Part shown: positions 11,476 through 17,016 of the stretch, one piece after another
Position numbering within the stretch: the stretch's first letter is position 1
Layout of the letters: each line of letters opens with the position of its first letter
Notes under the pieces: generated by a model
What the model was told of the DNA's origin: nothing
What the model saw: only the letters and a program-made list of their open reading frames with translations
The model's database searches: none
Program-made: the position numbers and the translations under genes
Source of the DNA: Luteibacter sp. Sphag1AF
GTDB taxonomy: Bacteria; Pseudomonadota; Gammaproteobacteria; Xanthomonadales; Rhodanobacteraceae
Direction: 5' to 3'
NCBI RefSeq assembly: GCF_014192715.1
Contig: NZ_JACHYH010000006.1
Location: 62,001 to 126,000 of the forward strand
DNA length: 64,000 bases

Positions 11476-12261
11476 ATGGCTGGCCCGAATAACGAGAGCA
11501 GGCGCGGTACGGACGCGCTCTCCCGCCTGTCCTGGCACGACTTCGAGCACCTGCTCGCCGAGCATTTCCGCGACCAGGGTTATCGCGTGGAGCATTTTGC
11601 CGCAGCCGGCAGCCTGAAGGCACTGGAAGGCGGCGTGGATCTGCGGCTTCGTCGCGGGTCGGAGTTTGTGATCGCCCAGTGCAAGCACTGGAATGCGGCG
11701 GAAATCGCTGCCAGCGATGTGCAGGCCCTGCTGGGCACCATGCTGGACGAAGCCGCCAACAGCGCCATCCTGATTACCCGCGGACAGTTTTCTGCCGATG
11801 CCCGTCGCGCCGCACTTCGACAGCCGCGCCTGCGACTGGTGGATGCGGACGTGCTTCGGGTGATGCTCAAGCTGGGCGACCCGATGGAGCCTGCCGCGCT
11901 CCCGGCAACGACGCGGACGCGCGACAGGCCCAGGCCGTCACGGCGCGGTTCGGATGCCTCCGTCTCCCGTTTCCTGCCGATTGCCCTGGTGGCGGTGATC
12001 GTGCTGATGCTGAGCGTGCTGGTATGGCGCAACATGCATCCGGCCCACCCGCCCGTGGCCCCGCTGCCTCCGCCCCCGGCCCCCGATGTGCCGTTGAGCG
12101 CCATCGTGGGCCCGGCGCCGCCGACCACCACGGCACCACCGGTCATTCCTTATGTTCCGCCCGTGCCCACTGACCATGTACATGCCGCGCCTGCGGCGCG
12201 TCAGTCGGACGATGCGATGAAAGTGATGGAGCGCAATACGCGGGAAGTCGGGCAGCCCTGA
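11476..12261 (+). CDS. Membrane-anchored Mrr-like restriction-endonuclease-fold protein
   Basis: 261 residues from ATG 11476; an in-frame ATG at 11446 is an alternative. Residues 15-135 form an Mrr_cat-type PD-(D/E)xK nuclease core: catalytic Asp55 (GGVDLRL) and Gln68-Cys-Lys70 (IAQCKHW), the QxK variant typical of Mrr and its relatives. A hydrophobic span at about 162-180 (LVAVIVLMLSVLVW) then a Pro-rich tail (APLPPPPAPD and similar) follow, so the nuclease domain is cytoplasmic and tethered to the membrane, with the tail probably periplasmic. Mrr-type enzymes cut methylated or foreign DNA. No methyltransferase partner lies nearby. Role is inferred. Confidence 0.8.
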   Translation: MAGPNNESRRGTDALSRLSWHDFEHLLAEHFRDQGYRVEHFAAAGSLKALEGGVDLRLRRGSEFVIAQCKHWNAAEIAASDVQALLGTMLDEAANSAILITRGQFSADARRAALRQPRLRLVDADVLRVMLKLGDPMEPAALPATTRTRDRPRPSRRGSDASVSRFLPIALVAVIVLMLSVLVWRNMHPAHPPVAPLPPPPAPDVPLSAIVGPAPPTTTAPPVIPYVPPVPTDHVHAAPAARQSDDAMKVMERNTREVGQP

Positions 12262-12297: not shown

Positions 12298-13041
12298 TCA
12301 TCGCATGGTTAGGCGGCCCCATCCGCCACGCCCCCAGCGCTGCCTCGCTCCCACGAGCGATGCCGTGGCTTTATCCAGCGCGTCGCCCAGATAGAGCCAT
12401 CCGCAGGTCGCTGGCCGGGTGCGCGCGCACAGCGCGATGTGCTGCTGCGCAAGCCTTTCGTCGGCGGGTACCACCACATGATCTATACCCGCATGCACGG
12501 CCAGTGACGCACCCGTGGTGACGTCGCCGTCATACATCAGCGCCGTCGCAATGCCTTCCGCGCGCAATGCCGCGCAGCAGGCGCGCACGCCCGGACGCAG
12601 ATCATCCCGCCAGCGCACCAGACCCAGCGCGCGATCCGCATCCACCACAATCCAGCTCTCGTCCCCCTCGGCGGCGTATTCGTCCACGCGCTCGTCAAAC
12701 CAGCCGGGCAAGTGACTGTGCGCGGCGTCCAGCCAGTCTTCCACGGCCGGACGGTCACCCTTGCGGTACGCATGTCCGTCTACATCGGCACCACTCAAAT
12801 GACGGTGCGCGGTATGCGCCAGCGTGCTGCCTCCCGGCATGTCCTGCCGCCGCGCCAGCGCGGCAAGCAGGCGCCCCTCAGGCGACGCGTCGCCCACGCT
12901 GGCCAGCGCGGCGGCGTGGGCCAGTTCAAGCAGGGAGACGCCCGGCGCAGGCTGCAATGCGAACGCGCGACGCTGCCCCAGCGTGACGACGCCCCGATGT
13001 TCCAGCACCACCATGTCGATGCTCGGTGCACCCCAGCTCAT
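12298..13041 (-). CDS. Soluble KdpB-like P-type ATPase pseudoenzyme (P and N domains only)
   Basis: 247 residues with no transmembrane segment. Read against KdpB from memory, the sequence follows its cytoplasmic loop from start to end: VVTLGQRRAF for KdpB's TITLGNRQA, HAAALASVGDASPEGRLLA for DAAQLASLADETPEGRS, an RKG at 93-95 for the nucleotide-pocket RKGS, then ALGLVRWRDDLRPGV and GIDHVV. The catalytic residues are gone: the phosphorylated Asp of DKTGT is Glu14 (LEHRG), TGD is YDGD (170-173), and the hinge motif is LGDALDKA (218-225). It cannot be a working pump. Its start overlaps the end of the dehydroquinase-like gene by four bases, so the two are co-translated. It probably binds a ligand or a partner; function unknown. 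Confidence 0.75.
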   Translation of the reverse strand: MSWGAPSIDMVVLEHRGVVTLGQRRAFALQPAPGVSLLELAHAAALASVGDASPEGRLLAALARRQDMPGGSTLAHTAHRHLSGADVDGHAYRKGDRPAVEDWLDAAHSHLPGWFDERVDEYAAEGDESWIVVDADRALGLVRWRDDLRPGVRACCAALRAEGIATALMYDGDVTTGASLAVHAGIDHVVVPADERLAQQHIALCARTRPATCGWLYLGDALDKATASLVGARQRWGRGGWGRLTMR

Positions 13042-13495: not shown

Positions 13496-13527
13496 GGATC
13501 GGGTAACGATTGCGTAAAACCTGATCC
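13496..13527. promoter_or_regulatory. Inverted repeat in the divergent promoter region before xfp
   Basis: Nine-base arms GGATCGGGT and ACCTGATCC (one G-U pair) separated by 14 bases, in the 188-base gap between the divergent pseudoenzyme pair and xfp. It could be an operator or leader hairpin. No promoter elements were strong enough to call. Confidence 0.3.
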
Positions 13528-13609: not shown

Positions 13610-15967
13610 ATGCCCGATACGCTATCTCCGGATCTGCTGCGGCGTATGCACGCCTACTGGCGCGCCGCCAATTATCTGTCCGTTGGCCAGATCTACCTGC
13701 GCGACAACGCGCTGCTGGAAGAGCCGCTGCGACGCGAGCACATCAAGCACCGGCTGCTCGGGCATTGGGGCACCACCACCGGCCTGAACTTCCTCTACGT
13801 GCACCTGAACCGGGTGATCGTGGAGCGCGACATCAACATGATCTATGTGATCGGCCCCGGCCACGGCGGCCCGGGCCTGGTGGCACATACCTGGCTGGAA
13901 GGCTCCTACACCGAGATCTATCCCCAAGTGGAACGCAGTGCCGCCGGCATGCGCCTGCTGTTTCGCCAGTTCTCCTGGCCGTATGGCGTGCCCAGTCACG
14001 TGGCGCCCGAGACGCCCGGTTCCATTCACGAGGGAGGCGAGCTGGGTTATTCGCTGTCTCACGCGTATGGCGCGGCGTTCGACAACCCCGACCTCGTGGT
14101 GGCATGCATCATTGGCGACGGCGAAGCGGAAACCGGCCCACTGGCCACCAGCTGGCATTCAAACAAATTCCTCAACCCCGTCCGCGACGGCGCCGTGCTT
14201 CCGATCCTGCACCTGAACGGCTTCAAGATCGCCAATCCGACGGTGCTGGCACGCATCGAAAAGGAGGAGCTGACTTCCCTCATGCACGGCTACGGTTACG
14301 AGCCGTATTACGTGGAAGGCCACGAGCCTGAGGCGATGCATCAGGCCATGGCGGCCACCATGGACAAAGCGATGGACGAGATCGCGCGCATCCAGAAGGA
14401 AGCTCGCGCCACCCCGGGCGAGGTGAAGCGCCCGCGCTGGCCCATGATCGTGATGCGCAGCCCGAAGGGCTGGACCGGTCCGAAGGAAGTGGATGGTCTT
14501 CCGGTGGAAGGCACATGGCGCGCGCATCAGGTGCCCATTGCCTCGTTCGACGACCCGACACACGTGGCGCAGCTCGAAGCGTGGATGAAGAGCTACGAGC
14601 CGAGGGAGCTCTTCGACGACGGTGGCCGGTTCCGCGAGGAATTTGCATCACTGGCGCCCACCGGTCAGCGACGGATGGGGGCAAACCCGCATGCCAATGG
14701 CGGCGGATTGCTGAAACCACTGGCGATGCCGCACTTCCGCCAGTTTGCCGAAGACGTGAAGACCCCCGGCGATCACAAGGCCGAAGCGACGCGCGTGCTC
14801 GGCAGGTTTCTCCGTGAGGTCATGCGCCAGAACATGACCAACTTCCGCCTGTTCGGGCCCGACGAAACGGCGTCCAACCGGCTGGAAGCCGTGTATGAGG
14901 TCACCTCGAAAACCTGGCTGGCGCGCGTGGAAGAGGTGGACATGAACCTCGCGCCGGATGGGCGGGTAATGGAGATACTGAGCGAACACCAGTGCCAGGG
15001 CTGGCTGGAGGGTTATCTGCTGACCGGCCGCCACGGCCTGTTTTCCTGCTACGAAGCCTTCATCCACATCATCGACTCGATGTTCAATCAGCACGCCAAG
15101 TGGCTGAAAGTGACAAGGAAGATGTCGTGGCGACCGCCCATCGCGTCGCTGAATTACCTGCTGACCTCGCACGTGTGGCATCAGGACCACAACGGCTTTT
15201 CGCACCAGGACCCGGGCTTCATTGACCATGTGGCCAACAAGAAATCGGAGATTGTCCGCATCTACCTTCCACCGGATGCGAACTGCCTCCTGTCAGTCGC
15301 CGATCACTGCCTGCGCAGCCGCCACTATGTGAACGTGATCGTGGCGGGCAAACAGCCAGACTGGCAGTGGCTGGACATCGAATCGGCCATTCGCCATTGC
15401 ACGGCGGGCGCGGGTATCTGGTCGTGGGCAGGCCGTGGCGAAGACGATCCGGATGTGGTCATGGCCTGCGCGGGTGATGCCCCCACCCTGGAGGTGCTGG
15501 GTGCCGTGATGCTGCTGCGCGAATACGTGCCGGACATCCGCATCCGCGTGGTCAACGTGGTGGACCTGATGTGCCTGGAGACGGCGGACGAACACCCGCA
15601 CGGCATGGATGATGACCAGTTCGATGAGCTTTTCACCCGCGACAGACCGGTGATTTTCGCCTTCCACGGCTATCCGGGCATCGTGCACAAGCTGACCTAC
15701 CGGCGGCACAACCACGACAATATCCATGTGCGCGGCTACAAGGAGGAAGGCACCACCACCACGGCGTTCGACATGATGGTGTTGAACAACATGGATCGCT
15801 TCCAGCTCGCGCTGGACGCCATCAACCGCATCGAGCGGCTGGCCGATCAACGTGAACGGGCCCGGCTGCGCTATTGGAGCGACATCGAGCGGCACAAGCT
15901 GTACGTCAGCGAGCACGGCCAGGACTTGCCCGAAATCCGTAACTGGCAATGGAAGGCAGAAGCATGA
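13610..15967 (+). CDS. xfp: Xylulose-5-phosphate/fructose-6-phosphate phosphoketolase
   Basis: 785 residues, the full family length, from ATG 13610 with AAAGGAT about seven bases upstream; the upstream extension is intergenic. The enzyme uses thiamine diphosphate and phosphate to cleave xylulose-5-P or fructose-6-P to acetyl phosphate plus glyceraldehyde-3-P or erythrose-4-P. Visible signatures are [27 protein letters not shown], the ThDP/metal motif [11 protein letters not shown] followed by WHSNKF, and [13 protein letters not shown]. It overlaps ackA by four bases (ATGA), so acetyl phosphate is handed directly to ATP formation. Confidence 0.97.
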
Positions 15968-17016
15968 GCGTGCGCCATGTGCTGGCCCTCAATTCGGGGT
16001 CCTCTTCGCTGAAGTACGGCCTTTACGCTACGGATGGCGCGAGTGCGCGAGCGCTTCTGTCTGACCAGACCGACGCTCCTGCCCGCGGCGACGATCCGCT
16101 GAACACGATCATCGGCGCATTGAAGGAGAAAGCGCTGCCGGCGCCGGATGCGATCGGCCATCGCATTGTCCACGGCGGGCCCTCTGTCCGCGCGCATGCC
16201 GTTATCGACGATGCGCTGCTCGTCAAACTGGATGAAGCGCGTGCGTTTGCTCCGCTGCATGTACCGCAGGCACTGGCCATCGTGAAACGGGCGCGGGAGG
16301 CTTTTCCCGATCTGCCACAGGTGGCCTGTTTCGACACGGCATTCCATGCATCCATGCCCGACGTGGCGCGCATCCTTCCCCTGCCCGCCGACCTGCGTGC
16401 AGACGGAATCGAGAAGTACGGATTTCACGGACTGTCGTGTGAGTTCATCGTGCGCCAGCTGGGCGACCAGCTGCCGTCGCGCACGCTGATTGCGCATCTG
16501 GGCAACGGCGCGAGCATCACCGCGGTTCGCGACGGCCGATCCATCGACACCACGATGGGACTGACCCCAACCGGCGGCATTGTGATGGGAACGCGGCCGG
16601 GTGATCTTGATCCGGGCGTGCTGCTTTACCTGCTGCGGGAACGCGGTTACGACGCAGACGCGCTGGAACGTCTGGTGGATCGCGAATCGGGTCTTGCCGG
16701 CTTGTCCGGCGGTTCGCATGACGTGCGCGAATTGCGTTCGTCCGCTGCACCGCAGGCTCGTCTGGCCCTGGAGGTATTTGCGTACGTGGCAGCGCGCCAC
16801 GTCGCGGCCATGGCGACGGCGCTGGGCGGCGTGGACCTGCTGGTGTTCACCGGAGGCATCGGCGAGCACGACGCCGCCACCCGCGACGATATCAGCCGGC
16901 GCATCGCATGGATGCGCTCGGCCGCTTCGCCACTGGGCATACGCGTCATCACCACGGAGGAGGACGAACAGATCGCCCGCCACACGTGGCAGCTGACACG
17001 TAGCGCGACGGCTTAG
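15964..17016 (+). CDS. ackA: Acetate kinase
   Basis: 350 residues, shorter than the usual ~400. Present are the N-terminal [12 protein letters not shown] (Asn10 for magnesium), HRIVHGG with the substrate Arg, [12 protein letters not shown] with the catalytic Asp, [20 protein letters not shown], the [21 protein letters not shown] block and FTGGIGEHD with the catalytic Glu. All key residues therefore survive and the shortening comes from loops. It makes ATP and acetate from acetyl phosphate. Translation is coupled to xfp. Its stop codon overlaps that of the convergent frnE-like gene. Confidence 0.95.

Follow-up and report, generated by a model that had tools for sequence, protein, structure and literature searches.

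Why would a soil bacterium retain, as a gene of its own, a soluble P/N module of a potassium pump whose catalytic residues have been replaced, and retain it beside what appears to be a second degenerate enzyme? The question is posed by a KdpB-like gene in the window, the 64,000-nucleotide stretch of Luteibacter sp. Sphag1AF that was analysed here, which an earlier note made from the sequence alone had described as a maintained, membrane-free and catalytically dead derivative of KdpB. The features discussed are collected in Table 1. What is new beyond the earlier note is that the overlapping neighbour is apparently degenerate too, and of another family, and that the gene pair is an insertion.

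Table 1. Positions of the KdpB-like gene, its partner, the upstream motif and the flanking genes (numbering of the window).
Feature	Position	Strand	Description	Basis
KdpB-like gene, 247 aa	12298..13041	-	KdpB P and N domains only	phmmer, hmmscan, alignment, orthologue
AroQ-like gene, 127 aa	13038..13421	-	apparently degenerate type II 3-dehydroquinate dehydratase	profile, hhalign, alignment
TTTACG-N6-TTACC motif	13502..13518	-	upstream of operon; common to genus AroQ-like genes	19-region alignment, pattern search
Mrr-like nuclease gene	11476..12261	+	convergent flank	Pfam Mrr_cat 8e-22, synteny
Phosphoketolase gene (presumed)	13610..15967	+	divergent flank, other side of insert	ORF, synteny

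Judged by sequence comparison, descent from KdpB, and not from some other P-type ATPase, is secure, because the NCBIfam KdpB model TIGR01497 scores 80.1 bits (1e-22; residues 7-193 on model positions 298-492 of 675), the best non-KdpB P-type model (ZntA-type pumps) reaches 32 bits, and PDB and profile matches agree: phmmer found 5mrw_B at E 3.3e-27 over residues 5-194, and a profile of this protein and its Luteibacter rhizovicinus orthologue found KdpB at E of about 4e-30. The orthologue scores 77.8 bits with TIGR01497, and the window copy falls below that model's curated whole-protein cut-off of 527.9 bits. Pfam Hydrolase PF00702 (HAD-like) was matched by the window copy only, at 27.2 bits and above the gathering cut-off of 26.4. 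Mapped on the E. coli chain of 682 residues, the similarity starts at residue 298, just ahead of the phosphorylation motif, and runs to 495-497; across this region the P/N sequence, its order and its spacing are those of KdpB (KdpFABC; PDB 5mrw and 7bgy; isolated N domain 1svj). The likeness was originally thought to run almost the whole length of the protein; the P/N homology stands, but it covers about 77% (residues 5-194, or up to 205 in plasmid KdpB matches), and the final 42-53 residues have no secure alignment to KdpB. Whereas KdpB has about 690 aa with an A domain and membrane helices, the 247-aa protein begins at KdpB residue 298, lacks both the A domain (TGES) and the helices, and ends in a C-terminal tail of its own. 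Its maximum 19-residue Kyte-Doolittle mean is 1.25 compared with 3.02 for the genome's own KdpB, in keeping with the earlier reading that it has no membrane helices. AlphaFold2 run on the two-row alignment returned a pLDDT of 34.8.

The motifs were compared in an alignment of the orthologue pair with 19 KdpB sequences chosen for DKTGT; TGDN and GDGxND are present in all 19, one of which (L071) is cut before TGES. E. coli D307-K-T-G-T is E-H/R-R-G-V in the two orthologues (E-H-R-G-V in the window copy), the nucleophilic Asp of HAD motif I being Glu14 in both, and T471-G-D-N is Y-D-G-D in both. These two substitutions had been read correctly from the sequence alone, as had the retained Arg394-Lys395-Gly396 (RKG) of the nucleotide pocket. 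The same cannot be said of LGDALDKA, which had been equated with the GDGxNDAP hinge: YLGD(A/D)L(D/A)KA is kept in the tail of both species, but homology to KdpB stops near residues 194-205 and MAFFT did not place this segment at GDGxNDAP, which makes the equation a guess. The statement that every catalytic motif is lost is likewise slightly strong; DKTGT and TGD are gone, but Gly310, Thr313 and Asp447 of KdpB remain. Besides RKG, the N domain retains Asp344, Pro347-Glu348-Gly349 (PEG) and Ser384-Gly385 (SG), as in KdpB itself, whereas both orthologues have His in place of Phe377 and of Arg382. KdpB-invariant columns are kept more often in the N domain (17/28) than in the two P-domain parts (11/39), with 3/36 kept in the tail; the N versus P difference (Fisher p 0.012) is indicative only, as the KdpB rows are related to one another.

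By established P-type chemistry, a protein that has lost the phosphorylated Asp and TGD cannot run the usual pump phosphoenzyme cycle, and without Asp307 the phosphoenzyme itself is unlikely. A changed P domain (E14, DGD) or N domain that still hydrolyses ATP or a phosphoester would account for the conservation of Glu for Asp and of DGD in both species; HAD chemistry requires an Asp nucleophile, however, and Thr and Lys of DKTGT are gone, as are TGD and probably the GDGxND hinge, which leaves an altered enzyme unlikely. A flat denial of catalysis is nevertheless not certain, given that a soluble catalytic domain of PfATP4 is reported to show ATPase activity that does not depend on its Asp (PMC12152296). 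Nucleotide binding by the N domain is possible from the residues retained. Phe377His and Arg382His make it less certain; F377A and K395A together are reported to abolish ATP binding by E. coli KdpB (PMC11018627), and the isolated KdpB N domain is reported to bind ATP with 1.4 mM (PMC5089723). The remaining capacity of the protein would thus be mainly binding.

The frame of the KdpB-like gene contains no internal stop, and its start codon shares the ATGA with the stop of the upstream gene, so the intact frame and precise overlap described earlier are confirmed. An orthologue of equal length (247 aa, 68% identical) occurs in L. rhizovicinus LP_13_YM (NZ_SMCS01000005.1), with the same truncation and the same DKTGT and TGD substitutions. 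Orthologues that keep DKTGT and the membrane domains were not found, the only one recovered being truncated and altered alike, and a local truncation in the window strain was rejected on this ground. For the pair, the NG86 method gives dS 1.58, dN 0.232 and dN/dS 0.147, a rough value with dS near saturation; differences at the three codon positions number 54/43/140. In the same neighbourhood of both genomes, dN/dS is 0.255 for the AroQ-like gene, 0.212 for the Mrr-like gene, and 0.209, 0.169 and 0.128 for three further neighbours, which we take to be HDOD-like, lipoprotein-like and RluA-like, so that the KdpB-like value sits inside the range of the five (0.128-0.255). The gene is under purifying selection of ordinary strength. 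We conclude that it is maintained because the orthologue shares truncation and substitutions and dN/dS is about 0.15, which upholds the earlier description of a maintained gene rather than debris. A chance ORF or pseudogene was rejected for the equal-length intact frames and neighbour-like dN/dS, and the same observations nearly exclude a decaying relic without function, to which the narrow distribution and the very long branch to KdpB would otherwise point. Identity between the species is highest in the second P-domain part (38/47), followed by 91/125 in the N domain, 14/22 at the P start and 24/51 in the tail.

The truncated form was found in two of the 23 genus genomes examined. All 23 show some match, those in the others lying in frames of at least 690 aa, bar one weak 166-aa match (E 1e-3). 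Broader searches scored the best 11, 6 or 7 candidates per genome for family, order and class, respectively, and more diverged soluble forms below their thresholds would escape the counts. In the family (E<=1e-32), 3/233 genomes match, and the truncated form is counted in 2/233 because the third match (G194) is a full-length 696-aa frame with intact DKTGT. The order (E<=1e-36) gave the truncated form in 2/398 genomes, and the class (E<=1e-20, 369 genomes) gave 40 matches, of which the 39 besides the window gene lie in open frames of at least 516 aa. A genome-contig scan with the single protein yielded 24 pattern-matching stretches, among which no relative was confirmed; with the two-row alignment it yielded one locus, that of L. 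rhizovicinus. Viral contigs held no relative of the KdpB-like/AroQ-like pair, and a KdpB query found seven loci on them, 27-36% identical in the best segment. By tblastn, 445 plasmid and five phage records were matched, each at <60% identity; among the 12 plasmid rows listed, seven are annotated kdpB and five have no annotation. Phage and defence family models gave one match to the gene, at E 0.018. In the tree the orthologue pair stands on a branch of 3.49 from KdpB, too long for the donor kdpB to be named. The window strain's own genome (4.18 Mb) also encodes two KdpB-like pumps of full length in which DKTGT, TGD and GDGxND are intact (L002 and L003, on contigs C8 and C3), which are rather diverged from one another on the tree.

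The gene upstream, which overlaps the KdpB-like gene as ATGA in both species, belongs to a different family. Its profile gave a weak match to type II 3-dehydroquinate dehydratases in the PDB (best E 2.1e-4), and hhalign of 21 Luteibacter relatives against two canonical AroQs, from the window strain and L. rhizovicinus, gave 96.5% probability (E 8.5e-10) in a single comparison. The window copy matched no Pfam, NCBIfam, PHROGs or PADLOC family; with NF003804 its orthologue reached E 0.17 and another relative (L021) E 0.0036, both far under the cut-off. The profile similarity to type II AroQ spans most of its length, but GPNLN, REPDVYG, NPAAFTHTS and REPFRHHS of the strain's own AroQ, segments that we presume to serve the catalytic site, are missing, and EVH/EIH alone is kept. 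To judge from these losses, the AroQ-like protein is a degenerate enzyme without its catalytic residues. Its structure prediction is weak (pLDDT 56.0). Strong relatives (E<=5e-22) occur in 21/23 genus genomes, with G021 and G022 lacking them; other genera have weaker ones.

Synteny identifies the pair as an insertion. The best Mrr-like locus was compared in 19 other genus genomes (L040-L058), and in 17 of them the Mrr-like gene is followed 74-134 bp on by the gene that we take, from its sequence, to encode phosphoketolase (start estimated by alignment); in L045 and L050 phosphoketolase was not found within the stretch fetched beside the Mrr-like gene, and two genus genomes had no Mrr-like match. 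The corresponding gap in the window is 1,348 bp and contains the operon, antisense to both flanks. Directly after the phosphoketolase gene comes what is presumably an acetate kinase-like gene, the two together occupying 13610-17016 (+), and the Mrr-like gene weakly matches PADLOC models for type IV restriction. L. rhizovicinus has the same Mrr-like/KdpB-like junction, with different ORFs past the AroQ-like gene. At 18 AroQ-like loci elsewhere (L019-L036, up to 1.5 kb per side) there was no convincing KdpB-like remnant; the best matches, in L034 (E 0.026, strand opposite the AroQ-like gene) and L036 (E 0.083, same strand), are taken as chance, and the best overall (E 0.006) lies at the Mrr-like locus L059.

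An alignment of 19 upstream sequences showed that TTTACG-N6-TTACC and a later TTTAC box are common to the window, L. rhizovicinus and other AroQ-like loci. Exact copies of the motif occur in the window, at 15 of the loci L019-L036 and at L087; it is inexact in L034-L036 and one base off in L. rhizovicinus. From its sequence this region looks like a regulated promoter. GATACT follows the later TTTAC box by 11 bp upstream of AroQ-like genes, and a -35 reading of the TTTTTACG box was dropped for this short distance between the hexamers. No regulon is proposed, since TTTACG-N6-TTACC occurs twice in the strain's genome with the second copy inside a transporter-like ORF. Because the motif region is shared with AroQ-like genes elsewhere, the operon seems to have arrived complete with the upstream region proper to its AroQ-like gene, the KdpB piece having probably been added behind that gene.

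We propose that the AroQ-like gene was already degenerate when a kdpB piece comprising the P and N domains alone was captured behind it, probably once, in an ancestor of the two Luteibacter lineages, and that the two-gene operon came to adjoin the Mrr-like gene. The product would be unable to form an aspartyl phosphate or move ions and would be kept because it binds something. Coupled translation would make the two proteins side by side, to work together, and the KdpB-like protein would most likely be a non-catalytic regulatory or scaffold subunit alongside the AroQ-like protein, its N domain perhaps still loosely holding nucleotide and its conserved second P-domain half forming a contact surface. 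The KdpB origin and the dead module are very probable. The partnership with the AroQ-like protein is a tentative suggestion, in which complex formation, nucleotide binding and the regulatory role are extrapolated from sequence, and the explanation as a whole, from capture to partner, is offered as a working proposal that could well be wrong. It has to contend with the AroQ-like genes of other Luteibacter genomes, beside which no convincing KdpB-like neighbour was found, so that the AroQ-like protein would do without one there.

The same absence, together with an upstream motif that belongs to the AroQ-like gene, could reflect a stand-alone binder of a nucleotide or protein ligand that merely shares the AroQ-like promoter. 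The ATGA overlap, present in each of the two species, points instead to matched production, and such independence is doubtful. The two unrelated pseudoenzymes might also be a signalling pair, with nucleotide state relayed by the KdpB piece to the AroQ-like protein or the other way round; the operon would then encode a regulatory pair made entirely of pseudoenzymes, so far in two species of one genus, but this is unlikely. Still less likely is a soluble decoy or modulator that would adjust potassium uptake by binding one of the real KdpB's partners (KdpFABC subunits or KdpD). The genome does have the two intact pumps, and an interaction of KdpD with KdpB has been reported (PMC11018627); the same source gives Ser162, in the A domain missing here, as the target of the KdpD serine kinase, and a decoy for that kinase was rejected as the main reading on this account. 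The operon also lies far from both kdpB genes, which sit on other contigs, and its KdpB-like protein is only 33-36% identical to their products.

The KdpB-like protein and its partner have partial parallels. A free-standing P-type protein of Methanococcus jannaschii is reportedly an ATPase that keeps its phosphorylation motif. Compared by description only, this soluble P-type ATPase (Ogawa 2000, referenced in PMC4281712) is likewise a catalytic part without a membrane domain, whereas the Luteibacter protein is KdpB-derived and has lost the motif. For the AroQ-like partner, a further case is an analogy only. Fungal quinate repressors (QUTR / qa-1S type), which descend from AROM, reuse shikimate-enzyme folds in a regulator. 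One is predicted to leave its activator upon ligand binding, according to PMC12610400; these repressors are eukaryotic, with other domains and no KdpB partner. Literature searches returned no paper joining KdpB with Luteibacter, P-type ATPase with pseudoenzyme, or 3-dehydroquinate dehydratase with Luteibacter, which does not prove absence from print.

The KdpB-like protein is best regarded as a pseudoenzyme variant of a known family rather than a new kind of protein, and the unusual part is its pairing with another degenerate enzyme. With relatives of the AroQ-like protein in 21 of 23 genus genomes, the pair is a small system in which gene deletion can probe both roles. P-type ATPases have been studied as pumps of the membrane. 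A free-standing P/N module that is maintained without its phosphorylation motif shows that the cytosolic domains of such pumps can find new use as proteins in their own right.
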